Below, one piece after another: positions 17,790 to 53,325 of a DNA stretch of 64,000 nucleotides. A program made the position numbers and the translations under genes. The DNA lies in the NCBI GenBank assembly GCA_039654915.1, contig CM077596.1:77687751-77751750 (forward strand), written 5' to 3'. Numbering within the stretch: position 1 is the stretch's first letter; the number at the start of each line of letters is the position of its first letter. This DNA is from Aquilaria yunnanensis. Taxonomy: Eukaryota; Streptophyta; Magnoliopsida; Malvales; Thymelaeaceae. The notes below the pieces were generated by a model. That model saw nothing but the letters and a program-made list of their open reading frames with translations. It did not search any database and was not told where the DNA came from.

Positions 17790-18299
17790 AGGAGTGTTGA
17801 CACCCAATTTCGTCCGGGTGTTTTAAAATTTTGAAAAAAATTTTATTAAAAAAAAATTAATTTAAAAAAAAATATATATTACTATTATTATTAAAAAAAA
17901 TTTAATTAGTTTAAAATATATTTTTGTTTTGTGAAAATTTGATTTAAAATGATATATGTGTGAATATGTGTATGTTTGAAATAAAATAAAATTTCATGAA
18001 AAAAATGACAAAAAATTAAAAGTTTGAGGTAAAAATGACAAAATTGAGAAGTTTCGAAAAAAATTGACAAATTCTAAAAGTTCCAGGAGCATTTGGTAGT
18101 TTGTCACATAAAATTTTGAGCCTGCCGACGTTTTTGGCTCAAATTGACAGAAAACGACAAAATTGTCAAAATCAGAAGCTTCAGGAACTTATCCTGAGGC
18201 TGAGAGACGTAAAGGACTAAAATTGTCATTTTACCAATTTAAGAGATAAGTTTGAAATTTTTTATTAATTTATCCATCAACAGTTCAGCTAAACTTCCT

Positions 18300-18308
18300 C
18301 TATAAATA
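18300..18308 (+). promoter_or_regulatory. LTR TATA box
   Basis: The sequence ctataaata is a close match to a plant TATA box and lies about 505 bp into the LTR, before a C-rich stretch where the transcript (R region) could begin. The same box lies at 32667 in the 3' LTR, which could drive transcription outward toward 34.7 kb and the 3' side of the F-box gene. Inferred from position and consensus only. Confidence 0.6.
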
Positions 18309-18735
18309 GCCCCCCAAATTTTGTGCTGAACACAGATAAAAATAGAAAGAAAAGCTTAGAGCTCCGTTTTTAAAATAGAAAAAATTACAGCCTTAGTCCC
18401 TAGCTCTCCTTCCTTTCCTCAGAAAATCTCAAAACTTTTCATTTTGACGATTAAGCCATCTTCTCCCCCCTCGCGCGCCCTCTGTTTCCATTTCTCAGAA
18501 TTCAGAATTTAAAATCAAGGGTACAACTCTCATTTAATCCTTCATCTTTTCAATTTCTTTCACTTTGGTCACTAACTTTGTATTTTATTCTTGCAGAATT
18601 AATTACTAACCCTTTTAATTTTTACTTGTTTGTTTATTATTTGTTTATTACTAACCCCTTTTTTTATTGTTGTTATTAACTTACTAACAACTAACTTTTA
18701 ATACTATTATTGTTACTAACCTTTTAATTTTTGCA

Positions 18736-19150
18736 TTATTACTAACTTTTATAATTGTTGTTAACAATTAATTAACTTTTATTATTGTTGTTAATTAATT
18801 AATTTAATTAACTTGGCTAACTTTTATTATTGTTGTTAATTAATTAATTTAATTAACTTGGCTAGCTTTTTATTATTGTTGTTAATTAATTAATTTAATT
18901 AATTTGGCTAACTTTTTATTTATTGTTGTTAATTAATTTAATTAATTTGGCTAACTTTTTATTATTGTTGTTAATTAATTAATTTAATTAACTTGGCTAA
19001 CTTTTTACTGTTGTTAATTAATTAATTTAATTAACTTGGCTAACTTTTATTATTGTGGTTAATTAATTAATTTAATTAACTTGACTAACTTTTTATTATT
19101 GTTGTTTAACAATTAATTTAATTAACTTTGCTAACATTTATTATTATTTT
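18736..19150 (+). repeat. AT-rich minisatellite inside the LTR
   Basis: About nine units of roughly 45-55 bp, each a 'ttattattgttgttaatt' start followed by alternating aatt runs and 'aacttggctaac'. The same array is present at 33103-33517 in the other LTR. Confidence 0.9.
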
Positions 19151-19937
19151 TAAAGTGGATGGCCAAAAAGCCCCACTTTATTATTATTAATTTTTTTTCT
19201 TTATATAATTTTTTATTTAATTCACCTTTACCCTTTACTAATTAATAAATAAATGAAAATTAAAAGAAGATTATTTTGTAATTAATTATTAAGGCTAATA
19301 AAAATTATTTTTAAAAAAAAAGCCAATTATTTTTATTTTTACATACATGTTTTTAATTCTTTAAAGATAGCAAAAAGTTAAAATTAATTTTAATAGTTAT
19401 TTTTATCCAGTAAAAATAATAAAAAAATAAAAATAAAACCTGTTTAAAAAAAATACATGAAAATTAAGACTTTATATTTTACTGATTTATTTAAAATATA
19501 ACTTTTAAATCCACTAAAATAATAAATATTTTTCATTAAACAAGAAAACAAAAAGAAAATTAAAACAAGATAAGAAAAAGATAAGAAAGATAAGAAAAAG
19601 ATAATAAAGATAAGAAAGATAAGATAAGATAAGAAAGATAAGAAGGAAAAGAAAGAAAAGAAAGAAAAATATAGAAAATAAAAATTTTTAGATTATTAAT
19701 GAATCTAAAAATTCTATAACAAAAAGAATTACGAATTAGTAATTAAACTAATAATTAATTCCATAAAAATAAGAATTAAATAATTAACTATAAATTAAAT
19801 CAACTTACATATCCGGATGATCCGTCAGGATCTGCGGTTTAAAAAAAATATCACCCTTTTAATTAAATAAATTAAATAAAAAAAAGATAAAAATCCATAT
19901 TTACAATATGGATTAAATTATTTAAAAGTTCACCAAA

Positions 19938-20026
19938 TTCCGTGTCCAAATGACTCGGCAGAGTCCATGGTTCGGAATCAAAAATCTTCCGTGTCCAAAT
20001 GACTCGGCAGAGTCCATGGTTCGGAA
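19938..20026 (+). repeat. Duplicated 40-bp hairpin motif in the LTR
   Basis: Two direct copies (19938-19977 and 19987-20026) of a motif that starts ttccg and ends cggaa, with an inner inverted repeat gactc-ggca-gagtc. It could be a structured RNA element in the LTR transcript or a protein-binding site. Function unknown. Confidence 0.7.
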
Positions 20027-20303
20027 GTATAAAATTTCATACAAATTAATTAATTTAAAAATCCACATTTCGACTAATCCAGTTAAAATTTCTAATTTTG
20101 AAAATTAACTGAGAATTATTTAAAAGCAAAGCAAAACAAAATTAAAATCAACTAAGGTGCCAATTTTTGGGCGTTTTAACAAAGTTGTTTTAACGTAACC
20201 GTACTCCCGATCCCCGAACTCTCGCAGACCAATTTTAAGGTGACCAATCGACCTAAGAAAACTGATTGGTGGCGACTCCCGAAAACCCGACGTTGCCACA
20301 GCT

Positions 20304-20321
20304 TGGCGACTCCGCTGGGGA
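20304..20321 (+). other. Primer binding site, tRNA-Arg type
   Basis: Three bases after the 5' LTR the sequence reads tggcgactccgctgggga. A closely similar site complementary to the 3' end of tRNA-Arg is known in Ogre retrotransposons. This starts minus-strand cDNA synthesis and supports the Tat/Ogre placement. Confidence 0.75.
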
Positions 20322-21040
20322 CTCCACGTTAGTGAGTCGAGCCTAAAATTGATTTGTTTTGATTTACTTTGCTTATTATGTGGATTTATATGTTATATTT
20401 ACTTATTCTAAACATGCATAATGCATTCACAATATGAAGCTCTATACCCGAGCTTTCTCAAATCGAACACAATTCTTTCTAAGCGGAATTGGTGTTGTTG
20501 TCCTTGTGAGGCCATGGTCTCGAAGCCTTCACCGGTTTCAAAGTAGCAAAGTAGTGTATTGCCTCCTGAGACGGTTAGTCTCTGCATGGGCCCACGAAAA
20601 GCTATGACTCGAATTAATCCATTCCTTACATTAACCCTAGAGGGTAAGGAATCGGGCCATCACTATAATTTAGTGATGGGATTCGGGAACTATCCCTTGC
20701 CTTTTTGATAAGCCACCTTATGCATATAGAACTCCCCACTTAACCATAGAACTGACCATAGAATTTCTACCATTTTACCAACGCCATAAGCACGTCCTTG
20801 TTATGCTATGTTGTTGCTCTACACTTTTATTTTCTTCGTGTCTTATATTTATGGTTTTAATTCATTTTTCCATAATACTTCATGAGTTGTTAATTGCTAT
20901 TTAACTTATTAATAACCTTATCTTTCTTGTGCAATTATTCTTCATGCATTAAAACCACGCATCAAATTATACTAACTTTTTGGTCTTTATAATGACAACT
21001 AAAAGTTTTGAAGTTCCACGATAGTGGATAATCAAATTCA
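20322..21040 (+). other. Retrotransposon leader before gag, non-coding
   Basis: Untranslated leader with no long open frame. It may contain packaging or dimerisation signals. Nothing specific is recognised. Confidence 0.5.
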
Positions 21041-21335
21041 CTCATCGCATACATCCATTACATTAATCACGTGCATACAAAGTCTGATAAAAACATAATC
21101 TCATTGCATACATCCATTACATTAATCACGTGCATATAAAGTCTGATAAAAACATAATCTCATTGCATACATCCATTACATTAATCACGTGCATATAAAG
21201 TCTGATAAAAACATAATCTCGTTGCATACATCCATTACATCAATCATGTGCATACAAAGTCTGATAAAAACATAATCTCATTTTTCCTACATGCATCCAT
21301 TGCATCAATCACATACACATAGGATCTAATAAAAT
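21041..21335 (+). repeat. 60-bp tandem repeat in the retrotransposon leader
   Basis: About five units built on 'gcatacatccattacattaa' plus 'tcacgtgcata' and 'aagtctgataaaaacataat'. Units 2-4 are nearly identical; the last is diverged and contains an insertion. Each well-conserved unit holds a cacgtg hexamer. Confidence 0.9.
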
Positions 21336-21404
21336 ATATCTTACTTTTAAAAGGATAAAATTGGACCTCGACACTGATATTCAACTCGGCTCCAAATAAG
21401 ATTA

Positions 21405-22229
21405 ATGGCAGAACAAATCGAAAGACGTCTCATAAAGATAGAGTCCAAGATAGAAAGTATGGCCGAACAAATGAGACAATTGATCGAGTTAATCAAGGCG
21501 AAAGCAATTCAAGAAGCACAAGTTCAGCCACCCATGACAGAAAGAGAAATGGTCACTTTGTTTGTCCAGACACTGAAGTACCTATATTATGACGAACACC
21601 TTGGCAATTCGGCAACTAATTTTTCTAACATTGTCATGTCTGGAGAAAGAATCGAGCATGAGATTAGGACTGGGAATATTACTGAATCCTTTAATAATCC
21701 TATGAAAAGAGGAGGACCATCTAGAAGAAAAGATGACGAAGTACAACAAATAGGACGCAGAAGAAGGATTCCCCTCGTGGATACTGTGGCTATCGGACCT
21801 CGCCTATCCTATTTTGCCAATGGGCCCAATGATTATCCTTCCAATAGGCCCAACAATTATCCTTTTAACAGACCTAATCAGTCATGGCCACCTGCTCCTA
21901 CTCCTCCAGTACCTGCACCAAAACCAAGAGAAGTTTTCACACCAATTTCCATAACTTATACCGAGTTATACCCAAAACTCATCGAAAGACAATTTATCCG
22001 TCCAATTCCTACAAAGCCATTCAAACCCCCATATCCAAGGTGGTATGACCCTAACATTACCTGCCCATATCATGATGGCGTTCCAGGCCATGGCTTGGAA
22101 AACTGCATGGCATTGAAGCGTATAGTTCAACAATTAATCGAGTCAAAGTGGTTGGACTTTTCCGATGAGCCAAATGTCACCCACAATCCATTGCCGCCTC
22201 ATCAAGCAAAACCAAGTCCAAGTTGCTAG
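21405..22229 (+). CDS. Shortened Tat/Ogre-type gag protein
   Basis: A 274-residue open frame. The N-terminus (about 1-45) is a predicted coiled coil, IERRLIKIESKIESMAEQMR. It then moves directly to PMTEREMVTLFVQTLKYLYY, which normally lies well inside gag, so most of the capsid N-terminal domain appears deleted. The middle is rich in Pro and Asn with repeated NRPN motifs. The C-terminus holds the lineage-typical pattern FTPISITYTELYPKLIE, PPYPRWYDPNITCPYH and GHGLENCMALK, a Cys/His nucleocapsid-like motif. A stop follows soon after, with no pol frame. Full gag packages the element RNA; whether this version can do so is unknown. The start is the first Met after the leader repeats. Confidence 0.85.
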   Translation: MAEQIERRLIKIESKIESMAEQMRQLIELIKAKAIQEAQVQPPMTEREMVTLFVQTLKYLYYDEHLGNSATNFSNIVMSGERIEHEIRTGNITESFNNPMKRGGPSRRKDDEVQQIGRRRRIPLVDTVAIGPRLSYFANGPNDYPSNRPNNYPFNRPNQSWPPAPTPPVPAPKPREVFTPISITYTELYPKLIERQFIRPIPTKPFKPPYPRWYDPNITCPYHDGVPGHGLENCMALKRIVQQLIESKWLDFSDEPNVTHNPLPPHQAKPSPSC

Positions 22230-22804
22230 GCCCGATGTGATTGATAATTGAAAAGTGAAGATTTCGAGCTAGAATTACATTGACTTTGGAAGGCCTCCAA
22301 GTCAGATCTGACCTAACAGTTCGCACACATTTTTGAATGACAAGGAATCCTTTGAATAAACTTGTATCTTTGATAGCTTGCCAAAGTAATCTAATAGTAA
22401 AAATCTCCTAGATTTAGTCCAGAATCTAGGGTGTAGTCTTTGTTAAATGGACACCTGCTATTCTTTTTCTGGTACAACAAAAAGATGTGATGCGTGCATT
22501 CTACTACTTTCCATTTTTACACTCTTTCCATTATACTATCCATTATTGCTATCATACTTTGCTTTCTAAATGATACTACTCGTGGGTGAAAATAAAAAGT
22601 TAAGGGAAATTTGATAGTAATGATCTTGAAAGTGCTGCCAAATCTAGTAAGAAGGATTTCATATGTTGCACCTCAACCCTAAAAAAGAATTCACAGTGGT
22701 TATCAACATCCTTGCAAGAAGTCTGGGGTTAGCTTCCAAACAAGGTACCTCTCATATTAAATGACTTCAGTGGCCTCCCAATTCTCACAAATGCTCAATA
22801 CAAA

Positions 22805-23115
22805 AAAAAAAGATTCTCAGTTTTCCGCAACACAAATTCCAACAAAGGAAAGAAGTTCATCCCTTCCATCAAAAGCCATTAAAGGGAAAATCCAAAACAA
22901 AAAAAAGAGACTGAGAGCAAACACAAGCAACTAAGGCCACTTGAATCATTTCACTTCAAGAGGGCTATGATCTCAGTTCTTTGCAACACAAACTCCGAAA
23001 AGAGAAATTCATCCCTTCCATCAAAAGACAACAAGGGAAAATTCAAAACCAAAAAGAACTGAGAACAAGCACGAGCAAGCAAGGCCACTTGAGTCATCTC
23101 ACTTCAAGAGAGTTA
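22805..23115 (+). repeat. Two tandem copies of ~155 bp
   Basis: Both copies contain 'ttcatcccttccatcaaaag' and 'aaggccacttga(a/g)tcat'. They are about 85-90% alike by eye and non-coding. Confidence 0.8.
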
Positions 23116-23399
23116 TCAAGTATGTCATCACCATAGCTTACAAAAAAAAAAAAAAAGGAAACAAAAAAAAAACAAAAAAAAAAAAAGAAAAAAGGGCTCA
23201 AACTAGAGCAAAAGAAAAAAAAGAAAACAAGTGAGCTATGGATTCTAAACTGAAAACCTGCAAAGGCGGTTTAGAACACAAAAGCAACCCTCAAACCAAG
23301 CAGGCATAAAGATCACAATAGTTGGGGGGCAACAGATGAGGTCTAACTTTCTGGAAAGAGTGGCAAGTTGAGGTCATCACTATTGAGTTTTTCACCATA

Positions 23400-23880
23400 A
23401 TCAAATTTGCTCACGAGTAGTATTAAAAGACCATTCTTCCACACCACTTAAATTTAACTTTTCTCAAACCGAACATCCTCATTCAGTTAAAAGACTATCA
23501 TTGTGAATCATGTTTCTACCTTGTTTAATACTGCTCACGAATAGTATTAAAAGACCCTTCTCCCACACCACTTAAACTTAACTTTCCTCAGACTGAACAT
23601 CCTCATTCAGTTAAAAGATTATCATTGTGAATCATGCTTCTACCTTATTTAATATTGCTCACGAGTAGTATTAAAAGACCCTTCTTTCACACCACTGAAA
23701 CTTAACTTTACTCAGACCTAATATTTACCTCTTAATATCATTCTCATTCAGCTAAAAGACTGCCACAAAAAAAAAAAACATTCAAACTTAACTTTCCTCA
23801 CACCTAACATTTACCTCTCGATATCATCCTCATTCAGTTAAAAGGCTATTATTGTGAATCATGTTTCTACCTTATTGCCT
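23400..23880 (+). repeat. Tandem repeat, ~120-bp unit
   Basis: Three to four units share 'acgagtagtattaaaagacc', 'cacaccact' and 'catcctcattcagttaaaag'. The last unit is disrupted by an A-run near 23770. Non-coding. Confidence 0.8.
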
Positions 23881-24859
23881 TGCACAGTTTATGTCTTCGA
23901 GTTGGAAAGGGAAGAATGACAGGACATTTTAATTGAAAACAAAGACCGTAAATTACTTTGTCAAGCTTTGAAAATTGATGAAAGTTTTTCTTTAAGGCCA
24001 AACCATTATTCATTAATGTATGTAGACTTAAAAGTAAGGAGATAGCTTGAGTCTTTCTTTAATAAGATGTGGTTCTTGTAAGAGAAATTTACGATCAAGT
24101 GCCATCACAAAGGTCTAGAAATCCTCAACCTTCTGTTAAATCAAAGGCGAGATGATATCTCTTTTCACATAAACACCATAATCAAGGGGGCAAAGTAGTC
24201 TCTACTAAGCGCAAGAAAAGTACTGCCAAGAAAGAAGCTCAATAGACAAGGGGGCAAGTCTTATGGATCAGAACCTGAGTCTAAGGAAGAGCAATCATTC
24301 GGACTGTAACATGGGGGTAAACAAGTGTCCGCACGGCCAGAAGAAAATGGGCAAAGCAGACATTGAAAGTAAAGCCTTTGATGGTATCAAATCCATGACA
24401 ATGGATGAGTACCCGAAAGAGATATAAATTATGAGGCGGGCCAACTTTAAAGAAATTGAGGCCAAAATTCAAGAACAAGTCAAAGAAAGGGGATTTTGAA
24501 AAGAGTTGGGCTTTTGAGGCAGTGAACAAAAGCTGGAAAGCATAAAGAGATTCAATGATAGTCCAAGAAGGCAATTATAAAGAGGATCCAGTAAAGCAAA
24601 GATATGAAGAACTAGATCAATCCAAAAAAAATAAAAAATAAAAAAATAAATATAAATAAAAAAAAAAAACCATCAATTACACATGCTTTGCATTCATGCA
24701 TTTCACATCATGCATGCATGATTTTTACACGATAGGAATCAAATGGGAAACACATCCACCGCACCGTTACAGCAGTATAAGCTGAGATCTCAATAATATC
24801 AGCTCTTACCAATCTATCACTGGATACACAGCTAATATGCAGGACCAACCCGCATCAGG

Positions 24860-25200
24860 AATTCAAGGATAAGGTAGACAATATGTCAAAAGCCTGGCAA
24901 TTGATTCAATAATCGAGACTACACCTGGAAGGACAGGATTGACATCAGCTAGTAGTATCCAAAATAAGAGATAGCTATAGCCAAGGATAAGGCAGATATC
25001 AAAAAGGATAAAGTAGACAATATTGTCAAAAGCTTGGCAATTGATTCAATAATCGAGGCTACACCTGAAAGGACAGGATTGATGCCAGCTTAGCAGCATC
25101 CAAGATAAGAGATAGCTGTGGTCAAAGATAAGGCAGACATCAAGAAATATTGTCGTTGAAACTTTGTCAAAAGCGGACAATGGATTCAATAATCGAGGAC
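24860..25200 (+). repeat. Tandem repeat, ~145-bp unit
   Basis: Two to three units share 'gacaatattgtcaaaagc', 'attcaataatcgag' and 'ggacaggattga'. The last unit is partial and ends shortly before the first zinc-finger gene. Confidence 0.8.
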
Positions 25201-25363
25201 TGGATCAACGGATAAAAAAAAAAAATATCTATCAAAATGAAGTAGGATCTACTTTTCCGGTTAAACGGCGGATACGGTACTCCGTGACTCTCAAGTCGGT
25301 TCTCTCAGTTGCCCATAATAACTGATTCCTTCACCCCTTCTTTCTTTTACTTCCTCCTAGAAA

Positions 25364-25912
25364 ATGGATCCTACTTTTTCCGCCTTGCGAAAGTATTTCC
25401 CTTCTCTCCCAATGAACATCCTCAAAAAGATCTACCAAGTTCGCTGTGAACGATTAAGAGTTCTGATGCACAAAGGAATCCCTGAAGATGTGCGGTGGTT
25501 AATCGAAGCCAAGGTTCGTCTAGCAGGTGAAATCCCAGAGGCATTTGTGTCTCACATGCCTGGTATAGGCAAAAGCTCTTATGCCAAAAAGCGAAGAGCG
25601 AAAAGGTTACAAGTCTGCCATAAATGTGGACGGTGGACTTGTAATACTAAATGTCGTTCTTTAGGGATGATCTCTGATAATCGAGAAGATAAAATACGAT
25701 TCATTAAGAATGGCTTGAGTAAAGACTCGTTGGATGATATCCAATTGACTCTTGAGACGCATTCTTGTGGATCTGTGCAACGTGAACTACTTGGTTTGTG
25801 GAGCATTTTTCATGAAGAACGAGAACGATACAGTCCCGGGAATCTGACGTTAAACGACCCTATTTGTCAGCTTGTAAGGAAACTGGATGGGAAGCAAATC
25901 CTTGACTCATAG
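25364..25912 (+). CDS. Cargo zinc-finger protein, copy 1 (carlavirus-type nucleic-acid-binding-like)
   Basis: A 182-residue intronless open frame. The N-terminal ~65 residues are helical and basic. The core is a Gly-Ser-Tyr-Ala start followed by a basic run (KKRRAKRL, about 75-82) and four cysteines spaced CxxC-x4-C-x3-C (C85, C88, C93, C97), then RSLGMISDNREDKIRFIKNG. This order of basic run, Cys cluster and FI-NG tail resembles the cysteine-rich nucleic-acid-binding proteins of carlaviruses and relatives, some of which are reported to act in RNA silencing suppression or as transcription factors. The resemblance is in pattern; I could not align it by computer, and the ~100-residue flanking parts are unlike those small proteins. 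Predicted nuclear or RNA-binding. Unlike copies 2 and 3 it lacks an obvious TATA box just upstream. The function in the element is unknown. Confidence 0.8.
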   Translation: MDPTFSALRKYFPSLPMNILKKIYQVRCERLRVLMHKGIPEDVRWLIEAKVRLAGEIPEAFVSHMPGIGKSSYAKKRRAKRLQVCHKCGRWTCNTKCRSLGMISDNREDKIRFIKNGLSKDSLDDIQLTLETHSCGSVQRELLGLWSIFHEERERYSPGNLTLNDPICQLVRKLDGKQILDS

Positions 25913-25939
25913 AAGCCATTAATCCCGTTACTGGACGTA

Positions 25940-26090
25940 AAACCAGTGGAAGATGTGAGCCACAGTCACAATCACTGTACATACAATTTATCATATTTAA
26001 AATTTTCCATTTTTCTTTTAATAATGTATTTGCTCCCGTAAGTGTAATCGACACGTTATCCATTTCATCGCTATAAATGCATGTTCTTCC
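25940..26090 (+). promoter_or_regulatory. Promoter module upstream of cargo copy 2
   Basis: After copy 1 comes a block with 'cacagtcacaatcactgta', 'aaaattttccatttttc' and 'ataatgtatttgctcc', then 'gtaagtgtaatcgacac' and a TATA box (ctataaatgc, about 26071). Related blocks precede copy 3 and the LOG gene. The spacing of TATA to the copy 2 start codon (about 85 bp) suits a plant Pol II promoter. Inferred from conservation among the modules. Confidence 0.6.
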
Positions 26091-26158
26091 AGTCGGTTAT
26101 CTAAGTTTCCTTCAATAACTAATTCCTTTCCATCATCTCTCAAATTCTTCTCTCATCA

Positions 26159-26707
26159 ATGGATTCTACTCTTTCAGCACTGCGAAAATACTTTCCTTCC
26201 CTTCCAATAAAAGTCCTTAAAAAGATCTACCTTGCTAGATGTGAAAGAATCAGAGTTTTTACACGCAAAGGCATTCCCGATAATGTGCAGTGGATAATTG
26301 AAGCTAAGGTCCGTCTGGCGGGTGAAGTTCCAGATGCATTTATGCCCCGCATGCCCGGTTTAGGTAAAAGCCGTTATGCCAAAAGGCGAAGAGCAAAGAG
26401 ACTAGGCGTGTGTTATAAATGTGGGCGATGGAATTGTAATACTAAATGTCGCTCTTTAGGATACATCTCCACAAATCGTGAAGATAAAAGAAAATTCATT
26501 AAGAATGGCCTGCGTAATGAATCTCTGGAGGATATCCGGGGGACTCTTGAAGCGCATTCTTGCGGATTTGTGCAATATGAAATTATCGATTTATGGATAA
26601 CTTTCTGTAAAGAACAAGACCGTTACAGTCTTGGGAATCTGACTTTAAACGATCCTGTTTGCCAGTTTGTAAGAAAACTGGATGAGAAGCGAATCCCCGA
26701 TTCATAG
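26159..26707 (+). CDS. Cargo zinc-finger protein, copy 2
   Basis: 182 residues, the same length as copy 1 with no gaps, and about 70% identical by eye. The basic run (KRRRAKRL) and all four cysteines (CYKCGRWNCNTKC) are kept, as are the RSLG and FIKNGL segments and the C-terminal GNLTLNDP block. Substitutions are spread along the protein while the core motifs hold, which suggests selection on the product. It has its own upstream promoter module with a TATA box. The family resemblance and uncertainties are as for copy 1. Confidence 0.8.
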   Translation: MDSTLSALRKYFPSLPIKVLKKIYLARCERIRVFTRKGIPDNVQWIIEAKVRLAGEVPDAFMPRMPGLGKSRYAKRRRAKRLGVCYKCGRWNCNTKCRSLGYISTNREDKRKFIKNGLRNESLEDIRGTLEAHSCGFVQYEIIDLWITFCKEQDRYSLGNLTLNDPVCQFVRKLDEKRIPDS

Positions 26708-26729
26708 ATGGCATTAAAGTCATTAATGG

Positions 26730-26900
26730 ACATAAATCGGTAGAAGATGAGAACGACAGTCATGATTGCTGTACATTTAAGTTGTCATTTGTCTTTTCTT
26801 TTGACAACAATGTACTAGCTTCTGTAAGTGTAATAAACGCTTCATCCTTTCATCACTATAAATATATGTTCTTCCTTCAGGATATGGTACTCCATAACTC
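26730..26900 (+). promoter_or_regulatory. Promoter module upstream of cargo copy 3
   Basis: It repeats the module before copy 2: a 'gtcatgattgctgtaca' block, 'gtaagtgtaataaacgc', then a TATA box (actataaatata, about 26856). Related to it by sequence, diverged at scattered positions. Confidence 0.6.
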
Positions 26901-26960
26901 TCAAAATCATTTATTTACGTTTCCTACAATCACTAATTTCCTTCTATGCCTCCTTCATCA

Positions 26961-27512
26961 ATGGAGTCTTCTCTTTCCACCCTACGAAAATATTTCTCTT
27001 CTTTCCCAATAAATGTTCTTAAAAAGGTTTATCAAGCTAGATGTGAACGATTCCGACTATTTATGCACAAAGGCATTCCTGATAATGTGCGATGGCTAAT
27101 CGAAGCTAAAGTTCGTTTGGCTGGTGAAGTTCCAGATGCGTTCTTTCCCCGTATGCCCGGCTTTGGTAAAAGCGCTTATGCCAAAAAAAGAAGAGCAAAG
27201 AGGATATGCGTTTGTCATAATCGTGGATGGTGGATTTGCGGCAATAAATGTCGTTCTCCAGGAGTGATCACCAGAAATCGTAATGATAGAATAAGATTCA
27301 TTAAGAATGGCTTGCGTAAGGAATCTCTAGAAGATATTTGAGAGGTTCTTGAAGCGCATTCTTGCGGAATAGTGCAATTTGAGGTTGTTGGATTATGGAC
27401 AATTTTCCAAAAAAAAAATGAGATCGTTACAGTCTTGGGAATCTGACCCAAAATGACCCTGTTTGCCAGTTTGTGAGAAAGCTAAGATGAGATGCAAATC
27501 ACCGATTCATAG
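26961..27512 (+). pseudogene. Cargo zinc-finger protein, copy 3, broken
   Basis: The reading frame follows copies 1 and 2 from the Met aligned with theirs, then meets a TGA at 27339-27341 about two thirds of the way. An A-run near 27410-27418 then shifts the frame for the rest. The second cysteine of the zinc-binding set is replaced by arginine (CHNRGWW), so the finger would fail even in the part still readable. The remnant of the C-terminal block is visible to about 27512. It is the most decayed of the three copies. Confidence 0.85.
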
Positions 27513-27539
27513 AAAGCATTGAAGCCATTACTGGACGCA

Positions 27540-27990
27540 AAGCCAGTGGAAGACGAGGATCAAAGTCACGATTACTGTACGTGCTAGCTGTCGCTTTTGA
27601 AATTTTCCTCCCCTTTTGGTAATAATGTATTCACTACTGACGTGAACCAAAGTCACGATTACTGTACATGCTAGCTGTCACTTTTGAAATTATCCTCCCA
27701 ATAATGTACCCACTCCTGACATGAGATACAGTTATGATTACTGTATATAGCTGCCACTTTTTAAAATTTTCCTTCTCTTCCAACAATCATGTACCTACTC
27801 CTGACGTAAGTTATAGTAGTGACTACTGTACATGCTAGCAGCTATTTTGAAAATTTTCCTCCTCTTTTAACGATAGTGTACCCATACCTGACCAAAGTCA
27901 TACTCGTGACTACTGTGAATAGCTGGCAATAATGTATCCATTCTTGAAAATAAAATTATTGCCTTATCTCTTCATCTCTATAAATATATC
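27540..27990 (+). promoter_or_regulatory. Amplified promoter/enhancer array and TATA box upstream of LOG
   Basis: Five imperfect units of about 80-95 bp, each with a 'tgactactgtacatgctagc'-type block, a 'tttgaaattttcctcc' block and an 'aatgtacccactcctgac' block, are related to the single modules before copies 2 and 3. TGACG motifs occur at 27638 (tgacgtg) and 27802 (tgacgtaag); the latter resembles the as-1 type element of strong plant promoters. A TATA box (ctataaatata) lies at 27978-27988. The start codon at 28019 is only about 40 bp from TATA, so the leader would be very short. Confidence 0.6.
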
Positions 27991-28018
27991 CTCTTTTCTC
28001 ATAAGGGTAAGGATAGGA

Positions 28019-28648
28019 ATGGAGAAAACCCCAACTCGTAAATCCCGAAGTATTTGTGTATTTTCTGGGGCTTTTCCTGGAAAAGATGAAGAGTATTTAA
28101 AGGCAGCCAACCATTTGGGTAGAGTATTAGCTGAGCGAAAAATACATTTAGTTTATGGAGGAGGTAGTGTCGGATTAATGGGAGGTGTAGCATCAGCAGC
28201 ATCTTTAGGAGGAAGTCAAGTTTTGGGCATCATCCCTGGACCTTTGAAATTTGTTTCCGGGGGCACGATTGGAGAAGAATTAGTGGTTAAAAATTTGCAA
28301 GAGCGTGTGTTACAAATGCTTTTAAATGCTGATGCTTTTATCGCTCTACCAGGTGGTTTTGGCACATTGGGAGAAGTCTTTCAAATTGCTTCCATGGCCC
28401 AACTTAATTTGCATAAGAAACCCATTGGGCTTTTAAATGTTAACAATTTCTTTACAGGTCTGATAGCTTTTATGGATTATGCTATGCAGAAGAATTTCAT
28501 ATCAAGAGTGGCACGGCGAATTATAATATCCGCAACAACTGCTGAAGAATTGCTAGATAAAATACAAGCTTTTGTTCCTGAACCAGATCCAGCAATGATT
28601 CAGATAGACTGGACACGACAGTCTTTTCCGACTAGTTCACTCCAATAA
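28019..28648 (+). CDS. LOG-type cytokinin riboside 5'-monophosphate phosphoribohydrolase
   Basis: 209 residues, the usual LOG length. LOG enzymes release active cytokinin bases from their ribotides in one step. Visible signatures are RSICVFSGAFPG (about 10-21), the nucleotide-binding YGGGSVGLMGG (46-56), the arginine in LQERVLQM (R96), which aligns with the catalytic arginine of the usual HQRK segment, and the hallmark PGGFGTLGE (111-119) with its catalytic glutamate. ARRIIISA and a C-terminal segment follow. I chose the Met at 28019 because it sits just before the conserved N-terminus; an in-frame upstream Met (27932) would lie before the TATA box. Plant LOG genes normally have several introns; this one has none, which suggests capture from an mRNA or an intronless source. 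It lies inside the LTR element, downstream of the zinc-finger copies. Confidence 0.93.
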   Translation: MEKTPTRKSRSICVFSGAFPGKDEEYLKAANHLGRVLAERKIHLVYGGGSVGLMGGVASAASLGGSQVLGIIPGPLKFVSGGTIGEELVVKNLQERVLQMLLNADAFIALPGGFGTLGEVFQIASMAQLNLHKKPIGLLNVNNFFTGLIAFMDYAMQKNFISRVARRIIISATTAEELLDKIQAFVPEPDPAMIQIDWTRQSFPTSSLQ

Positions 28649-29160
28649 TGGTCCTCTACTCACCCTGTTGAAGTATTGTGGAAGAAAGAAGCGATCTGAT
28701 CCGTTTTTCTTGTCCTTTCGTTTTAATTATCAGCATTTTCTTTCGTATTTCAGTTTTTCTTTTCAGGGAATTTTGTTATCTTATAAGATAGTTTCGTCCA
28801 TGCTGATATTAAAACCATGAGACAATGCCTTTAGGTTGGAATGGCTGAGTAAAGAGTAATTTTTGTTACTCTTGAGACGCATCCTATTAGGTCTACTAGG
28901 CATAACATTTTGGGGTAGTTAAGCTTTAACCTTATTTGGATGACATATCTCACAAGGGAATCTATATTTACTGAAGGAAATATTAGATTAACCTTGGATA
29001 TTGATTCCAAACATCCGTTCCCTTTACATAATTTGTCAGTGTTATTGTCGTCATCAAGATTCACTCGTTTTATCGAAGCCTAATTCTTTGCACTCGCCTA
29101 TTATGAAAATTCACACTTTCAAAGAAAATTATTCCAATTTCAATTACTTTCATATAAATT
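28649..29160 (+). other. 3' side of LOG, no gene seen
   Basis: AT-rich DNA with short open frames of no recognisable content. It presumably holds the LOG 3' UTR and polyadenylation signals. Confidence 0.45.
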
Positions 29161-29164
29161 TCGC

Positions 29165-31800
29165 TCGAGGTCATAAGGAAAGCTCCTTAGCCTCAAAATT
29201 AATTTTCATCATCGAGGTTTTAAGGATGGAACCTTTGCCTCGAAAACAATCAATTATCAATCCGAGGTTTTAAGGATGGAACCTTTGCCTCGAACTCAAT
29301 CAATCGTCGAGGTTTTAAGGATGGAACCTTTACCTCGACATCAATTAATCAATCCGGGGTTTTAAGGATGGAACCTTTGCCTCGAGAAAACAATCAATTC
29401 GAGGTTTTAAGGATGGAACCTTTGCCTCGAAAACAATCAATTCGAGGTTTTAAGGATGGAACCTTAGCCTCAAAAACAATCAATTTTCATCAATCCGAGG
29501 TTTTAAGGATGGAACCTTTGCCTTGAGATCAATCAATCAATTCGAGGTTTTAAGGATGGAACCTTTGCCTCGAAAACAATCAATTTTCATCGTCGAGGTT
29601 TTAAGGATGGAACCTTTACCTCGACATCAATTAATCAATCCGGGGTTTTAAGGATGGAACCTTTGCCTCGACATCAATCAATCAATTCGAGGTTTTAAGG
29701 ATGGAACCTTTGCCTCGAGATCAATCAATCGTTGAGGTTTTAAGGATGGAACCTTTGCCTCGACATCAATCAATCAATCCGAGGTTTTAAGGATGGAACC
29801 TTTCCCTCGAGATCAATCAATCAATTCGAGGTTTTAAGGATGGAACCTTTGCCTCGACATCAATCAATCAATCCGGGGTTTTAAGGATGGAACCTTTACC
29901 TCGAGATCAATCAATCAATTCGAGGTTTTAAGGATGGAACCTTTGCCTCGACATCAATCAATCAATCCGAGGTTTTAAGGATGAAACCTTTGCCTCGAGA
30001 TCAATCAATCAATTCGAGGTTTTAAGCATGGAACCTTTGCCTCGAAATCAATTAATCAATCCGGGGTTTTAAGGATGGAACCTTTGCCTCGACATCAATC
30101 AATCAATTCGAGGTTTTAAGGATGGAACCTTTGCCTCAAAATCAATCAATCGTTGAGGTTTTAAGGATGGAACCTTTGCCTCGACATCAATCAATCAATC
30201 CGAGGTTTTAAGGATGGAACCTTTTCCTCGAGATCAATCAATCAATTCGAGGTTTTAAGGATGGAACCTTTGCCTCGACATCAATCAATCAATCCGGGGT
30301 TTTAAGGATGGAACCTTTACCTCGAGATCAATCAATCAATTCGAGGTTTTAAGGATGGAACCTTTGCCTCGACATCAATCAATCAATCCGAGGTTTTAAG
30401 GATGGAACCTTTGCCTCGAGATCAATCAATCAATTCGAGGTTTTAAGGATGGAACCTTTGCCTCGACATCAATCAATCAATCCGGGGTTTTAAGGATGGA
30501 ACCTTTACCTCGAGATCAATCAATCAATTCGAGGTTTTAAGGATGGAACCTTTGCCTCGAAATCAATCAATCGTTGAGGTTTTAAGGATGGAACCTTTGC
30601 CTCGACATCAATCAATCAATCCGAGGTTTTAAGGATGGAACCTTTTCCTCGAAAACAATCAATTTTCATCGTCGAGGTTTTAAGGATGGAACCTTTACCT
30701 CGACATCAATTAATCAATCCGGGGTTTTAAGGATGGAACCTTTGTCTCGACATCAATCAATCAATTCGAGGTTTTAAGGATGGAACCTTTGCCTCGAGAT
30801 CAATCAATCGTTGAGGTTTTAAGGATGGAACCTTTGCCTCGACATCAATCAATCAATCCGAGGTTTTAAGGATGAAACCTTTGCCTCAAAAACAATCAAT
30901 TTTCATCATCGGGGTTTTAAGGATGAAACCTTTGCCTCGAAAACAATCAATTTTCATCATCGGGGTTTTAAGGATGGAACCTTTGCCTCGAAAATAATCA
31001 ATTTTCATCATCGGGGTTTTAAGGATGGAACCTTTGCCTCGAAAACAATCAATTTTCATCATCGGGGTTTTAAGGATGGAACATTTGCCTCGAAAATAAT
31101 CAATTTTCATCATCAAGGTTTTAAGGATGGAACCTTTGCCTCGAAAACAATCAATCAATTCGAGGCTTTAAGGATGGAACCTTTACCTCGACATCAATCA
31201 ATCAATTCGAGGTTTTAAGGATGGAACCTTTGCCTCGACATCAATCAATCAATCCGGGGTTTTAAGGATGGAACCTTTGCCTCGAGATCAATCAATCAAT
31301 CCGGGGTTTTAAGGATGGAACCTTTGCCTCGAGATCAATTATCAATCCGAGGTTTTAAGGATGGAACCTTTGCCTCGACATCAATCAATCAATTCGAGGT
31401 TTTAAGGATGGAACCTTTGCCTCGAGATCAATCAATCAATCCGAGGTTTTAAGGATAGAACCTTTGCCTCGAGATCAATCAATCAATCCGGGGTTTTAAG
31501 GATGGAACCTTTGCCTCGAGATCAATCAATCAATCCGAGGTTTTAAGGATAGAACCTTTGCCTCGAGATCAATCAATCAATCCGGGGTTTTAAGGATGGA
31601 ACCTTTGCCTCGAGATCAATTATCAATCCGAGGTTTTAAGGATGGAACCTTTGCCTCGACATCAATCAATCAATTCAAGGTTTTAAGGATGGAACCTTTG
31701 CCTCGACATCAATCAATCAATCCGGGGTTTTAAGGATGGAACCTTTGCCTCGAGATCAATCAATCAATCCGAGGTTTTAAGGATGGAACCTTTGCCTCGA
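29165..31800 (+). repeat. Hairpin-forming minisatellite
   Basis: Several dozen tandem units, mostly 36-50 bp. The constant part is cgaggttttaaggatggaac followed by ctttgcctcg; the variable spacers are catcaatcaatcaatt, gatcaatcaatcaatc and aacaatcaattttcatc. The constant part has inverted ends (cgagg and cctcg) with an inner aggtt/aacct pair, so every unit can fold. Higher-order blocks of alternating spacer types recur, suggesting multi-unit duplications. Open frames across the array are by-products of the period. Confidence 0.95.
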
Positions 31801-31802
31801 AA

Positions 31803-32060
31803 ACAAATAATCAATCAATCAGTCCATCTTACAACGATAGGAGCTTTCCTATCGTTAGAGGTTCTAAGGACATTTCCTTAACCTAAAACAAACAATCAAT
31901 CCATCAGTCCATCTTACAACGATAGGAGCTTTCCTATCGTTAGAGGTTCTAAGGACCTTTCCTTAGCCTCAAACAAATAATCAATCAATCAGTCCATCTT
32001 ACAACAATAGGAGCTTTCCTATCGTTAGAGGTTTTAAGGACCTTTCCTTAAACCTTACTG
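31803..32060 (+). repeat. Three ~85-bp units with a strong hairpin
   Basis: Each unit contains aacgatagga-gctt-tcctatcgtt, a 10-bp stem with a 4-base loop (one mismatch in the third unit), then a 'gaggttctaaggac...ccttagcctc' part that mirrors the layout of the preceding minisatellite. Units start near 31803, 31886 and 31972. Confidence 0.9.
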
Positions 32061-32148
32061 TTTGGGCGGCGAGAACATTCTCAATGCCTACCTAAGCCGG
32101 ACGAAATTTGGTAACGACTTTGCATACATCATGTCCCATGAAGCATGC

Positions 32149-32160
32149 AAAGGGGGGCAG
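32149..32160 (+). other. Polypurine tract
   Basis: The sequence aaaggggggcag lies directly before the 3' LTR, where plus-strand cDNA synthesis starts in LTR retrotransposons. Confidence 0.85.
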
Positions 32161-32161
32161 C

Positions 32162-34667
32162 TGTTGACACCCAATTTCGTCCGGGTGTTTTAAAATTTTG
32201 AAAAAAATTTTATTAAAAAAAAATTAATTTAAAAAAAAATATATATTACTATTATTATTAAAAAAAATTTAATTAGTTTAAAATATATTTTTGTTTTGTG
32301 AAAATTTGATTTAAAATGATATATGTGTGAATATGTGTATGTTTGAAATAAAATAAAATTTCATGAAAAAAATGACAAAAAATTAAAAGTTTGAGGTAAA
32401 AATGACAAAATTGAGAAGTTTCGGAAAAAATTGACAAATTCTAAAAGTTCCAGGAGCATTTGGTAGTTTGTCACATAAAATTTTGAGCCTGCCGACGTTT
32501 TTGGCTCAAATTGACAGAAAACGACAAAATTGTCAAAATCAGAAGCTTCAGGAACTTATCCTGAGGCTGAGAGACGTAAAGGACTAAAATTGTCATTTTA
32601 CCAATTTAAGAGATAAGTTTGAAATTTTTTATTAATTTATCCATCAACAGTTCAGCTAAACTTCCTCTATAAATAGCCCCCCAAATTTTGTGCTGAACAC
32701 AGATAAAAATAGAAAGAAAAGCTTAGAGCTCCGTTTTTAAAATAGAAAAAATTACAGCCTTAGTCCCTAGCTCTCCTTCCTTTCCTCAGAAAATCTCAAA
32801 ACTTTTCATTTTGACGATTAAGCCATCTTCTCCCCCCTCGCGCGCCCTCTGTTTCCATTTCTCAGAATTCAGAATTTAAAATCAAGGGTACAACTCTCAT
32901 TTAATCCTTCATCTTTTCAATTTCTTTCACTTTGGTCACTAACTTTGTATTTTATTCTTGCAGAATTAATTACTAACCCTTTTAATTTTTACTTGTTTGT
33001 TTATTATTTGTTTATTACTAACCCCTTTTTTTATTGTTGTTATTAACTTACTAACAACTAACTTTTAATACTATTATTGTTACTAACCTTTTAATTTTTG
33101 CATTATTACTAACTTTTATAATTGTTGTTAACAATTAATTAACTTTTATTATTGTTGTTAATTAATTAATTTAATTAACTTGGCTAACTTTTATTATTGT
33201 TGTTAATTAATTAATTTAATTAACTTGGCTAGCTTTTTATTATTGTTGTTAATTAATTAATTTAATTAATTTGGCTAACTTTTTATTTATTGTTGTTAAT
33301 TAATTTAATTAATTTGGCTAACTTTTTATTATTGTTGTTAATTAATTAATTTAATTAACTTGGCTAACTTTTTACTGTTGTTAATTAATTAATTTAATTA
33401 ACTTGGCTAACTTTTATTATTGTGGTTAATTAATTAATTTAATTAACTTGACTAACTTTTTATTATTGTTGTTTAACAATTAATTTAATTAACTTTGCTA
33501 ACATTTATTATTATTTTTAAAGTGGATGGCCAAAAAGCCCCACTTTATTATTATTAATTTTTTTTCTTTATATAATTTTTTATTTAATTCACCTTTACCC
33601 TTTACTAATTAATAAATAAATGAAAATTAAAAGAAGATTATTTTGTAATTAATTATTAAGGCTAATAAAAATTATTTTTAAAAAAAAAGCCAATTATTTT
33701 TATTTTTACATACATGTTTTTAATTCTTTAAAGATAGCAAAAAGTTAAAATTAATTTTAATAGTTATTTTTATCCAGTAAAAATAATAAAAAAATAAAAA
33801 TAAAACCTGTTTAAAAAAAATACATGAAAATTAAGACTTTATATTTTACTGATTTATTTAAAATATAACTTTTAAATCCACTAAAATAATAAATATTTTT
33901 CATTAAACAAGAAAACAAAAAGAAAATTAAAACAAGATAAGAAAAAGATAAGAAAGATAAGAAAAAGATAATAAAGATAAGAAAGATAAGATAAGATAAG
34001 AAAGATAAGAAGGAAAAGAAAGAAAAGAAAGAAAAATATAGAAAATAAAAATTTTTAGATTATTAATGAATCTAAAAATTCTATAACAAAAAGAATTACG
34101 AATTAGTAATTAAACTAATAATTAATTCCATAAAAATAAGAATTAAATAATTAACTATAAATTAAATCAACTTACATATCCGGATGATCCGTCAGGATCT
34201 GCGGTTTAAAAAAAATATCACCCTTTTAATTAAATAAATTAAATAAAAAAAAGATAAAAATCCATATTTACAATATGGATTAAATTATTTAAAAGTTCAC
34301 CAAATTCCGTGTCCAAATGACTCGGCAGAGTCCATGGTTCGGAATCAAAAATCTTCCGTGTCCAAATGACTCGGCAGAGTCCATGGTTCGGAAGTATAAA
34401 ATTTCATACAAATTAATTAATTTAAAAATCCACATTTCGACTAATCCAGTTAAAATTTCTAATTTTGAAAATTAACTGAGAATTATTTAAAAGCAAAGCA
34501 AAACAAAATTAAAATCAACTAAGGTGCCAATTTTTGGGCGTTTTAACAAAGTTGTTTTAACGTAACCGTACTCCCGATCCCCGAACTCTCGCAGACCAAT
34601 TTTAAGGTGACCAATCGACCTAAGAAAACTGATTGGTGGCGACTCCCGAAAACCCGACGTTGCCACA
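32162..34667 (+). repeat. 3' LTR
   Basis: The same length as the 5' LTR with no insertion or deletion (constant offset of 14,367). The one mismatch I found is 32424 (G) against 18057 (A). It ends at the target duplication aggag. Confidence 0.97.
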
Positions 34668-35107
34668 AGGAGTAAGGAGCAGCATACAAGTTAAAGTAAA
34701 CGAGTGGCTTCACTTTCGCATCATAGCACGAGAGAACTTCCCAGCTAAGTGAACAAAACGATATCTTTAACGTTAAAACCAAAGTTCTCTTTTAAAATCA
34801 ATTCTCTCTCTAAGAAAGAGAGAGCTATCTGTCATTTTGGAGCCCGGTTAACAAGATTACTGGATCTCTCAGTGAGAATTGAGAAATTGGCAAGGCAACA
34901 AAAGATTGAAATTCAAAAGAATATATTTCCCATTTCATAAATGGCAGCTTTATCAGCTGGTACATGCTGTGAACTTTCTCCAACAAACAGATTTCATTTC
35001 CATCCCCCAAATAAGATTTAAAAAAAAAAAAATTCAAACAAACAAATGAAAAATGTGCAACTTAAGACAAATTTGTGAATGCCAACAACAATGATGTGAG
35101 GAAGCAA
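34668..35107. other. 3' flank of the F-box gene, between its stop and the retrotransposon
   Basis: About 440 bp that should include the F-box gene's 3' UTR and polyadenylation site (minus strand). The open frames at 34749-34940 and 34825-35037 have no known domain. Confidence 0.5.
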
Positions 35108-36319
35108 CTACGGAGCAACTTCAAGCCTGGGTTCAAAACAAAAACCAGTAAAAAGCTGGAGAGGGAACCTTTTCGACACCGGGCACTTCTGTGACCATTT
35201 CCACTGTTTCTGAATCATGTCAAAGACTAGAAGAGCTGGAGCTCCATAGCTCTGGATGTATACCAGATCATCTGTCCCACTGCTCGCGAACACATCATCA
35301 AACTCACCAAATCCTTGAAAGAACTTATGCGGCATTCTAGCAACTTCTTGCCAATCCTTACCATCGAGAACCCATATACCAATCCCCTTGATTATATCTG
35401 GCCGATCATGCTTCCCTATACCTCCCACCATTACCAACTTCTCCTTTAGGTTCATCAGACGACCACATGTAAGAGGTCCAGGTACAGGGATGAAACTTCT
35501 CATCAATGAGGATGATCGACTGGAGAGGTTATACATAATGAGGCCATGACGGTTTTCTGGAGTGCTACCCCCAGTAGAGTAAATCAAAAAGTACAAAACA
35601 CCACCACAAATCACACTTTCATCTCCAGCTCTCCATCCGTTCAAGACTTCTGTCGTAGATGTAACCCAGACCATGGTTTCCGATTCATACATGTATATAG
35701 ACAGGTCCCACTGGTAGAAATTTCCTGGAACTTGCTTAGACTTCACAACAGCAATGGTGTAGTTGCGCAATGCCCTGTTCACTGAAATAGCAAGGGCACT
35801 ATAGTCAGAAAATTTCGGGCCGGGTGGCTCCGTAAGCTTCTTGCAGTGTTTGGTAATTGGGTTGCAAACGTACAACTCGCTTCTGCTGTCATTATCCATG
35901 AAGGAAACCAAACCATAGGATGAGGCAATAAACCAATTTGAAGTCCGAATGCAGGGTAGTTCAATGCTGTACCACTTCCGGAGGATGGGATCATAGGCAT
36001 AGCCAGCTGGTTCATCAGAGCTTGTAAACATAAAATACCAAGGTCTCTGCGACAGGACATGCGAAAAATTCCACAAAAACCTTTTTGCACTAACAATCTC
36101 ATGCCATCTTTTACACACCAACCCAGCTCTGAAAATGCTTGCAATGGGAAGAAATGCAATGATCCGTTCCAACAACTCATCAGGGAGAATTAAGTCGACG
36201 GAAATCGCAGTGGCTTCCTTGCTGCTTTCATCACTAAACTCTGATAATGAATCCACCTCAGCACTGTCTTTTGAGACTTCATCAACACAATGGCTTGTCC
36301 AGGAAGCCTCTTCCTCCAT
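35108..36319 (-). CDS. HWS: F-box/kelch-type protein, HAWAIIAN SKIRT orthologue
   Basis: A single-exon open frame of 403 residues. The F-box spans about residues 43-85 (DLILPDELLERIIAFLPIAS, then FRAGLVCKRWHEIV). The C-terminal part carries the HWS-type kelch-like region, with SQRPWYFMFT, YAYDPILRKWYS, SKQVPGNFYQWDLSIYMY, RLMNLKEKLVMVGGIGKHD and the highly conserved end FPLQLFTGFCFEPRLE. HWS is the substrate receptor of an SCF ubiquitin ligase that affects organ growth, sepal fusion and microRNA activity in Arabidopsis. The start is the Met before EEEASW, which fits the family's N-terminus; an upstream in-frame Met at 36421 would add 34 residues unlike the family. The gene looks intact. A young LTR retrotransposon sits about 440 bp downstream of its stop. 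Confidence 0.95.
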   Translation of the reverse strand: MEEEASWTSHCVDEVSKDSAEVDSLSEFSDESSKEATAISVDLILPDELLERIIAFLPIASIFRAGLVCKRWHEIVSAKRFLWNFSHVLSQRPWYFMFTSSDEPAGYAYDPILRKWYSIELPCIRTSNWFIASSYGLVSFMDNDSRSELYVCNPITKHCKKLTEPPGPKFSDYSALAISVNRALRNYTIAVVKSKQVPGNFYQWDLSIYMYESETMVWVTSTTEVLNGWRAGDESVICGGVLYFLIYSTGGSTPENRHGLIMYNLSSRSSSLMRSFIPVPGPLTCGRLMNLKEKLVMVGGIGKHDRPDIIKGIGIWVLDGKDWQEVARMPHKFFQGFGEFDDVFASSGTDDLVYIQSYGAPALLVFDMIQKQWKWSQKCPVSKRFPLQLFTGFCFEPRLEVAP

Positions 36320-52680: not shown

Positions 52681-52699
52681 TATGTATGCTACTGGGTTA

Positions 52700-52985
52700 T
52701 ATATATATGTTATAGATTTATAAATAACACAAATATATATGTATTTTTTTTGGGACTTATATGTATGTTTTGGGCTTATAAAGAACATAGGTGTGTATAT
52801 GTTTGCTTTTGATGTTTATATGTATGCTTATGTGTTTGTAAAAACACAAATATATATGTGGGCTTTTGGACTTTATATGCGTGCTTCTAGTTTTGTAAGG
52901 AATATAGGTATATATGTATGTTTCTGGGGTTTATATGTATGCTCTCGAATCCATAAAAACAAAAATATATATGTATACTTTTGGA
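52700..52985 (+). repeat. Minisatellite, ~60-65-bp unit
   Basis: About four to five degenerate units with 'tatatgtatg', 'tttgggcttata' and 'aaaaacacaaatatatatg'. Confidence 0.7.
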
Positions 52986-53325
52986 TTTTATGTGTGCTTC
53001 TAATCTGTGTATAATATGTGTTATACTGAAAGTAAAATGTATTAAGTTGTATAGGATATGTGTTAAACTAGAAGTGAATTGTATTAATTTGTGTAGGATA
53101 TGTGTTAAAGTAAAAGTAAAATGTATTAATCTGTGTAGAATATGTGTTAAACTGGAAGTAAATTTTATTAATCTATGTAAGATATGTATTAAATTGAAAG
53201 TAAAATGCATTAAATTATATGAGATATGTATTAAATTGAAAGTGAATTGTATTAAATTGTGTATGCTATATATTGGTTTGTACGTGAAACGTATTAAACT
53301 ATAAGTGAAATATATTAATCTATGT
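52986..53325 (+). repeat. Minisatellite, ~42-bp unit
   Basis: About seven units built on 'aaaatgtattaatctgtgta' plus 'gatatgtgttaaactggaagt'. The length is a multiple of three, so both strands stay open across the array (long reading frames at 52887-53363 and 52981-53304); these are not genes. Confidence 0.85.

Follow-up and report, generated by a model that had tools for sequence, protein, structure and literature searches.

Carlavirus-type zinc-finger genes and a LOG-type gene as cargo of a young, pol-less and probably Tat-type LTR retrotransposon in Aquilaria yunnanensis

Non-autonomous TR-GAG elements are defined by long terminal repeats (LTRs), a primer binding site (PBS), a polypurine tract and a gag frame, with no pol. 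The stretch of DNA considered here (hereafter, the window) comprises 64,000 nucleotides of Aquilaria yunnanensis (assembly GCA_039654915.1, contig CM077596.1, positions 77,687,751 to 77,751,750 of the forward strand), in which positions 17795-34667 are one LTR retrotransposon of 16.9 kb on the + strand. This element has the LTRs, PBS, polypurine tract and gag frame of a TR-GAG and no pol, but most of the capsid match is missing from its gag, and it has gained genes of host and viral type: three tandem genes for a zinc-finger protein resembling the carlavirus CRP/NABP (N1, N2 and a truncated N3), and a gene of LOG type. We consider it probable that this is a young, pol-less, Tat-type element whose cassette also occurs in relatives with pol elsewhere in this genome, and that these relatives are the likely source of its Gag and Pol.

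For the Tat clade, the order RNase H - aRH - integrase is given for angiosperm Ogre and Retand elements (PMC6317226). The pol-bearing relatives found in this study have the same RT-RNaseH-aRH-integrase order, a long 3' region and a G-patch, a domain previously reported in Gypsy elements (PMC9289625). What sets the elements described here apart from Ogre and Retand is their cargo, in which LOG is joined by three or four zinc-finger genes of CRP-like type.

Enzymes of LOG type have been met in retrotransposons before. Work by Steinbauerova in 2011 reportedly included two Athila-like elements with similarity to LOGL4. It is cited on LOG-type cargo in an account which places a LOG-type (YgdH) domain in Gypsy-type consensus sequences of two Citrus species and Populus trichocarpa (PMC9289625). 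Those elements share a LOG-type domain as cargo with the ones described here; the section that reports them names no virus-type zinc-finger protein, whereas N1 lies beside LOG in all ten further copies that we examined, and two of these LOG-bearing copies have a Tat-type pol. The same account describes giant (25 kb) Gypsy elements of Phalaenopsis whose cargo is likewise an enzyme, AlkB, known from plant RNA viruses as well; the enzyme is another one than LOG, and it was tested in vitro there, whereas LOG activity is predicted here from sequence and a structure model. Silencing suppression has been reported for carlavirus CRPs, and p12 of chrysanthemum virus B is described as a transcription factor causing hyperplasia (PMC12172455). 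The N1 and N2 products lie above the Viral_NABP and Carla_C4 cut-offs, but differ from the viral proteins in being 182 amino acids (aa) long, tandem and retrotransposon-encoded, with a weak fold match (best E 0.049). We found no report of CRP/NABP cargo in retrotransposons among the matches listed; the terms NABP, nucleic acid binding, cytokinin, lysine decarboxylase and carla are absent from the main text of a Retand paper (PMC11963269), and a literature search combining LOG, Athila and transposable element gave nothing beyond PMC9289625 among the 20 of 40 matches listed. LOG-type cargo in Gypsy elements is already known, and the zinc-finger cargo is without an earlier report that we could find; a preliminary description of this stretch had known of no described family with both.

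The features that define the element and its cassette are as follows.

17790..17794, no strand: left target site duplication (TSD), AGGAG (LTR/TSD comparison)
17795..20300, +: 5' LTR, 2506 bp, ends TG...CA, with CTATAAATA at 18300
20304..20321, +: PBS-like sequence TGGCGACTCCGCTGGGGA (sequence reading)
21405..22229, +: truncated gag open reading frame (ORF), 274 aa (ORF list, alignment to a relative's gag)
22230..25363, +: spacer in the place of pol, about 3.1 kb (comparison of copies)
25364..25912, +: N1, carlavirus CRP/NABP-like zinc-finger protein, 182 aa (Pfam)
26159..26707, +: N2, carlavirus CRP/NABP-like zinc-finger protein, 182 aa (Pfam)
26946/26961-27341, +: N3, truncated third zinc-finger copy (stop at codon 127 counted from the inner ATG)
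28019..28648, +: LOG, predicted cytokinin riboside 5'-monophosphate phosphoribohydrolase, 209 aa, intact frame (Pfam, fold)
32149..32157, +: polypurine tract AAAGGGGGG (sequence reading)
32162..34667, +: 3' LTR, 2506 bp, 1 mismatch to the 5' LTR (LTR pair comparison)
34668..34672, no strand: right TSD, AGGAG, identical to the left copy

The LTR pair, the TSD, the polypurine tract and the PBS, which may be of the tRNA-Arg / Ogre-Tat type, identify an LTR retrotransposon. Its youth, already apparent from the letters alone, is borne out by the single mismatch in 2506 positions of the LTR pair, equivalent to an age of some 15,000 years if roughly 1.3e-8 substitutions accumulate per site and year. 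A blastn search of the remaining window with the element as query gave no second copy. Aligned to the 601-aa gag frame of a related copy, the window gag covers residues 19-61 and 259-515 and is without residues 62-258, and with them most of the PF03732 match (188-279). A tblastn search of the whole window with a relative's 1144-aa pol gave no match at E 1e-3, and no pol lies between the LTRs, as expected of a non-autonomous element. The preliminary description had thus correctly seen a shortened gag, no pol, and three tandem zinc-finger genes with a full LOG followed by hairpin repeats, although the third gene is truncated.

Searches of the 842-Mb assembly reveal many copies of the cassette. 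With LOG as query, all 40 scored places (among 1343 first-look candidates) have at least 99% identity, and with N1 all 40 (among 2584 candidates) reach 100% after rounding; five places are common to the two sets, giving 75 distinct places spread over contigs C1-C7. Ten of the 39 other LOG places were examined (LOG-selected copies hereafter), and each contains both N1 and LOG, with three zinc-finger units in each of the eight pol-less copies and four in both pol-bearing ones. Element ends were resolved for a subset of the copies, and perfect TSDs are present in four elements: that of the window, C1-2.0M, C6-95.9M and C4-84.0M; no matching TSD pair was found at C1-107.2M. The copy C1-2.0M is also young (TSD CCCAT, LTRs identical over 2587 bp). 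It sits in the pol of an opposite-strand Tat element, and that pol is 97% identical to the pol of C6-95.9M. The case that the preliminary description had named against itself, a sole copy or an assembly chimera, is ruled out by the 75 distinct places and the independent TSDs.

The two pol-bearing copies, C6-95.9M (26.2 kb; TSD AAATT; 4 mismatches in 4107 positions of the LTR pair) and C4-84.0M (23.1 kb; TSD CCATA; 8 mismatches in 2558), determine how the cassette is to be understood. In both, RVT_1, RNaseH, RVT_3, H2C2 and rve are encoded upstream of the cassette with its four zinc-finger units and its LOG, while the preceding frame contains a G-patch; the pol of C6-95.9M is a single 1144-aa ORF. 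The RVT_3 domain between RNase H and integrase is the aRH that characterizes Tat elements, and its presence in both copies is at odds with an Athila assignment. Upstream of the cassette in the other eight LOG-selected copies, no pol was found. Because pol-bearing relatives in the same genome carry the cassette 3' of pol, the cassette is, as judged from sequence, the 3' cargo of a giant Tat-lineage family, of which the window copy appears to be a pol-less derivative. Since its own pol is absent, placement of the window copy in the Tat clade rests on similarity of LTR (97% identical to that of C4-84.0M), gag and cassette. The earlier proposal that the cassette had replaced pol does not hold, as the cassette lies 3' of pol in the relatives and the spacer of about 3 kb (22230-25363) occupies the place of pol. 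An extra zinc-finger unit, situated between N2 and N3 in both pol-bearing copies, is 81% identical to N2 and 76% to N3; the second unit of C6-19.6M resembles it (83% to N2, 77% to N3).

Two fused gene models that contain the zinc-finger protein, P0081 and P0106, come from Rhamnella and Orobanche. The parts fused to it seemed to us to resemble an Athila/Tat integrase C-terminus and a protease, a resemblance that Pfam did not confirm. Athila elements as carriers of the cassette in other species were considered on the basis of these models and set aside: because Pfam found no integrase or protease in them and the pol-bearing relatives are Tat, only Tat is claimed.

The eight pol-less copies contain 2936-3118 of the 3137 bases of the window spacer, whereas the two pol-bearing copies match 1023 and 1027 of them, about a third. 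Because of this common spacer, and of the three versus four zinc-finger genes, the pol-less form is most likely a single older sublineage that multiplied, rather than the outcome of separate deletions, insofar as sequence comparison can tell. The idea of a distinct non-autonomous family is to this extent upheld as a multi-copy pol-less sublineage, but the cargo itself belongs to a Tat family with pol. LTR segments of the copies examined range from 77 to 100% identity to the window, so that several LTR subfamilies appear to carry the same cargo. Gene conversion was considered, given LOG identities of at least 99% despite LTRs differing by up to 23%, and was dropped after a control sample of eight copies selected by N1. 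In this control, LOG was present at the expected offset in seven stretches and none was found in the eighth, and the LOG identities were 91.8-98.4% (dS to the window up to 0.21); the uniform LOG identity therefore reflects, for the most part, the use of LOG to select the copies.

N1 is open over its 182 codons in all ten LOG-selected copies. Within the window, the ratio of nonsynonymous to synonymous substitution rates (dN/dS) between N1 and N2 is 0.23 (codon bootstrap 0.14-0.37), and among copies it is 0.13 for N1 and 0.17 for LOG (ratio of means). Pairs with a stop, zero dS or an uncomputable value were omitted, leaving 54 of 55 for N1, 32 for N2 and 43 for LOG. For the three complete LOGs of the N1-selected control, dN/dS to the window is 0.07, 0.07 and 0.24. 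Because these ratios are low, they support selection on N1 and LOG as a likely explanation, and values below one are compatible with the earlier suggestion that the success of the element may depend on its cargo.

The zinc-finger products N1 and N2 exceed the Pfam curated cut-offs of Viral_NABP and Carla_C4, and N3 falls below them. Among 65 aligned proteins (two from the window), 61 match Viral_NABP and 56 match Carla_C4, and the four-cysteine pattern is present in 109 of 120 listed relatives. In a fold comparison with BFVD, 16 of the first 20 rows carry the names of flexivirus proteins that suppress RNA silencing or bind nucleic acid or RNA; the names agree with a CRP link, but because no match reached E 0.001, this comparison of a predicted model is supportive only. 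Scans of viral contigs with N2 and LOG queries found no relative, and a PDB search with N2 gave no match. N3 is open over 182 codons in C1-112.6M and has a stop at codon 8 in C1-107.2M; in the other eight copies it is read incompletely, at the edge of the piece. The relative P0066, a separate record, terminates at the same codon as the truncated N3 of the window, and the short form may for this reason be inherited and used.

The LOG frame (28019-28648) matches Lysine_decarbox at E 1.7e-30 over 209 codons, and its structure model (pLDDT 85) finds its best solved matches in the Arabidopsis proteins 1ydh and 2a33 (46-49% identity, root mean square deviation below 2), so that both sequence and model point to a domain and fold of LOG type. 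Alignments to 2a33, 1ydh and 5zbj show that the Glu differing between 5zbj and 5zbk, and the Arg preceding it, are conserved in the window LOG; we take these two to be catalytic residues. Across 120 listed relatives, the Arg and the residue after it read RM in 45, RI in 31, RL in 24, RK in 4 and RT in 1, with 15 unmatched. In a tree of 32 rows, 29 transposon-type LOGs (including that of the window) stand apart from three references with support 96/96; as the references are few (two Arabidopsis, one bacterial) and the remaining rows were drawn from the best matches to the window, a single capture of LOG is compatible with this topology. A C-terminal LxLxL (EAR-like) motif is present in 99 of the 120 listed transposon-type LOGs, directly preceded by a basic run in 94; the window LOG is without this tail and ends in SFPTSSLQ instead.

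Relatives of both genes occur in other plants. The CRP-like protein appears among the named rows for Xanthoceras, Acer, Rhamnella and Orobanche (120 of 146 matches listed), and the LOG type in Reevesia, Diplodiscus, Paulownia, Populus, Parasponia and Xanthoceras (120 of 7828 matches listed). A Rhamnella gene model, P0097, fuses the zinc-finger protein to LOG, its zinc-finger part being below the Pfam cut-off. Between the two lists, four contigs of at least 2 kb coincide in size and source, compared with 0.07 expected (106 of 120 CRP rows and 68 of 120 LOG rows used, chromosome-scale contigs left out, one source per row). These coincidences indicate indirectly that CRP and LOG genes share contigs in other eudicots.

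Several observations weigh against the cargo being functional, of viral type, or served by intact partners. The second zinc-finger unit is open over 182 codons in eight of the ten LOG-selected copies, with 178 codons in one and a stop at codon 89 in another, and LOG is open over 209 codons in nine, with a stop at codon 51 in C3-0.35M. The seven control LOGs include three open to codon 209, one open to the end of the piece and three that are broken. Given one LOG stop and one N2 stop in ten copies, and 3/7 broken control LOGs, a share of copies appears to be without working cargo. The dN/dS pairs are non-independent, and the among-copy ratio for N2 is 0.45, a value set aside as unreliable because the C6-19.6M unit is probably another paralog and C1-112.6M has a 12-base gap. 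The viral link of the zinc-finger protein is a weak sequence match, its structure model is poor (pLDDT 64), and the best BFVD match of that model has E 0.049, with none at E 0.001. In LOG, the residue after the Arg is Val, compared with Lys in AtLOG3 (RK also in AtLOG8), and the PGGFGTLGE segment departs from plant LOGs. As for the partners, the pol of C4-84.0M is interrupted by one in-frame stop, and the gag-pro frames of the pol-bearing copies, 589 and 826 aa, are read in part.

That the cargo is a neutral passenger, captured long ago and tolerated in the Tat 3' region, seems unlikely to us. Such regions are long and hold diverse extra ORFs (PMC6317226, PMC11963269), and decay is evident in the truncated N3 of the window, its stop at codon 8 in C1-107.2M, the 3/7 broken LOGs of the N1-selected copies and the LOG stop in C3-0.35M; however, dN/dS well below one for N1 and LOG, frames that are open in 10/10 and 9/10 LOG-selected copies, respectively, and the recurrence of both genes in other eudicots, where they share contigs on indirect evidence, would be unexpected of a passenger. 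Somewhat less improbable, though still doubtful, is that the zinc-finger protein is no silencing suppressor but an RNA chaperone or packaging protein of the element, replacing the lost part of gag. A basic stretch adjoins the Cys cluster of the protein, the window gag is without most of the capsid match, and viral CRPs are reported to be associated with virions (PMC11213338), yet the pol-bearing copies, with their part-read gag-pro frames of 589 and 826 aa, carry more zinc-finger genes (four) rather than fewer, and the relatives match carlavirus-type CRP families of which several members are reported as silencing suppressors.

That the pol-less copies arose by separate, recent deletions and do not multiply by themselves has in its favor the existence of a pol-bearing copy with a 97% identical LTR, but a spacer of about 3 kb that is common to 8/8 pol-less copies and present for only 1023 and 1027 bases in the pol-bearing ones, together with three zinc-finger genes in place of four, makes this quite improbable. 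A capture confined to this copy, an RNA-virus fragment inserted by chance or a chimera of the assembly has next to nothing left in its favor: an endogenous betaflexivirus-like sequence is known in cucumber (PMC3136472), but the 75 distinct high-identity places and the perfect TSDs of four elements refute a singular event, and several plant genera listed by name have relatives. Viewed by eye, the frames beside the cassette showed neither a polymerase nor a coat gene of a virus, no search for one having been made.

Further features of the element are repeats and predicted promoter motifs.

21041..21282, +: 59-bp tandem repeat, 4 copies, in the 5' leader (repeat search)
26071..26079, +: TATA-like box, 88 bp 5' of the N2 ATG (predicted)
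26856..26864, +: TATA-like box, 105 bp 5' of the N3 ATG (predicted)
27978..27986, +: TATA-like box, 41 bp 5' of the LOG ATG (predicted)
29213..31816, +: hairpin-forming 47-bp tandem repeat, 55 copies, 2.6 kb (repeat search, folding)
31800..32051, +: 85-bp repeat, 3 copies, two hairpins each (repeat search, folding)

Four repeat stretches were folded and compared with 200 shuffles: two (z -4.3 and -6.0) had no shuffle as stable, a third (z -3.4) had 2/200, and the fourth, whose boundary splits a unit, did not stand out (z -1.2, 26/200). The motif CTATAAATR occurs eight times in the window, compared with 2.07 expected, and five of the eight sites are inside the element, where they fall within the two LTRs and in front of N2, N3 and LOG. 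Because TATA-like boxes precede them, N2, N3 and LOG are suggested to have promoters of their own. Beyond the element, a 437-aa ORF at 35108-36421 on the - strand, which we take to resemble an F-box gene, stops some 440 bp short of the 3' LTR, and the insertion site thus lies just past a probable host gene. Tandem repeats of 42, 57, 84 and 115 bp are located at 52676-53274.

If the window copy is indeed a pol-less Tat-type element served by its relatives, its RNA would be made from the LTR and then packaged and copied in trans, with Gag and Pol likely provided by pol-bearing, cassette-carrying relatives. The zinc-finger protein would bind nucleic acid and, like carlavirus CRPs, may weaken RNA silencing or turn on growth genes, while LOG would free active cytokinin, so that the cell continues dividing. 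Both arms of the cargo would drive host cells toward division and away from silencing, and a new insertion would be heritable in dividing, meristem-like cells. We infer silencing suppression and proliferation as cargo functions by analogy with the viral proteins. A fuller scenario, which we offer tentatively and regard as less likely than not to hold in all its parts, is that a Tat family has carried the cassette since early eudicots; its CRPs would block silencing and switch on growth genes, LOG would feed the same cells active cytokinin, and the basic LxLxL tail of most relatives would direct LOG to the nucleus and TOPLESS co-repressors. The CRP gene would have been exchanged with RNA viruses, and the pol-less sublineage would use the pol of cassette-bearing partners.

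Plant viruses carry silencing suppressors and growth regulators. If the proposal is true, a viral strategy that joins CRPs to a hormone-activating enzyme would be at work in inherited, non-transmitted elements, and these elements would offer a direct test of how plant retrotransposons reach the germ line, namely by pushing host cells to divide. The finding also bears on the origin of flexivirus CRP genes, and it serves as a warning for annotation, in that many 'LOG' and 'carlavirus' genes of plant genomes may be transposon cargo.

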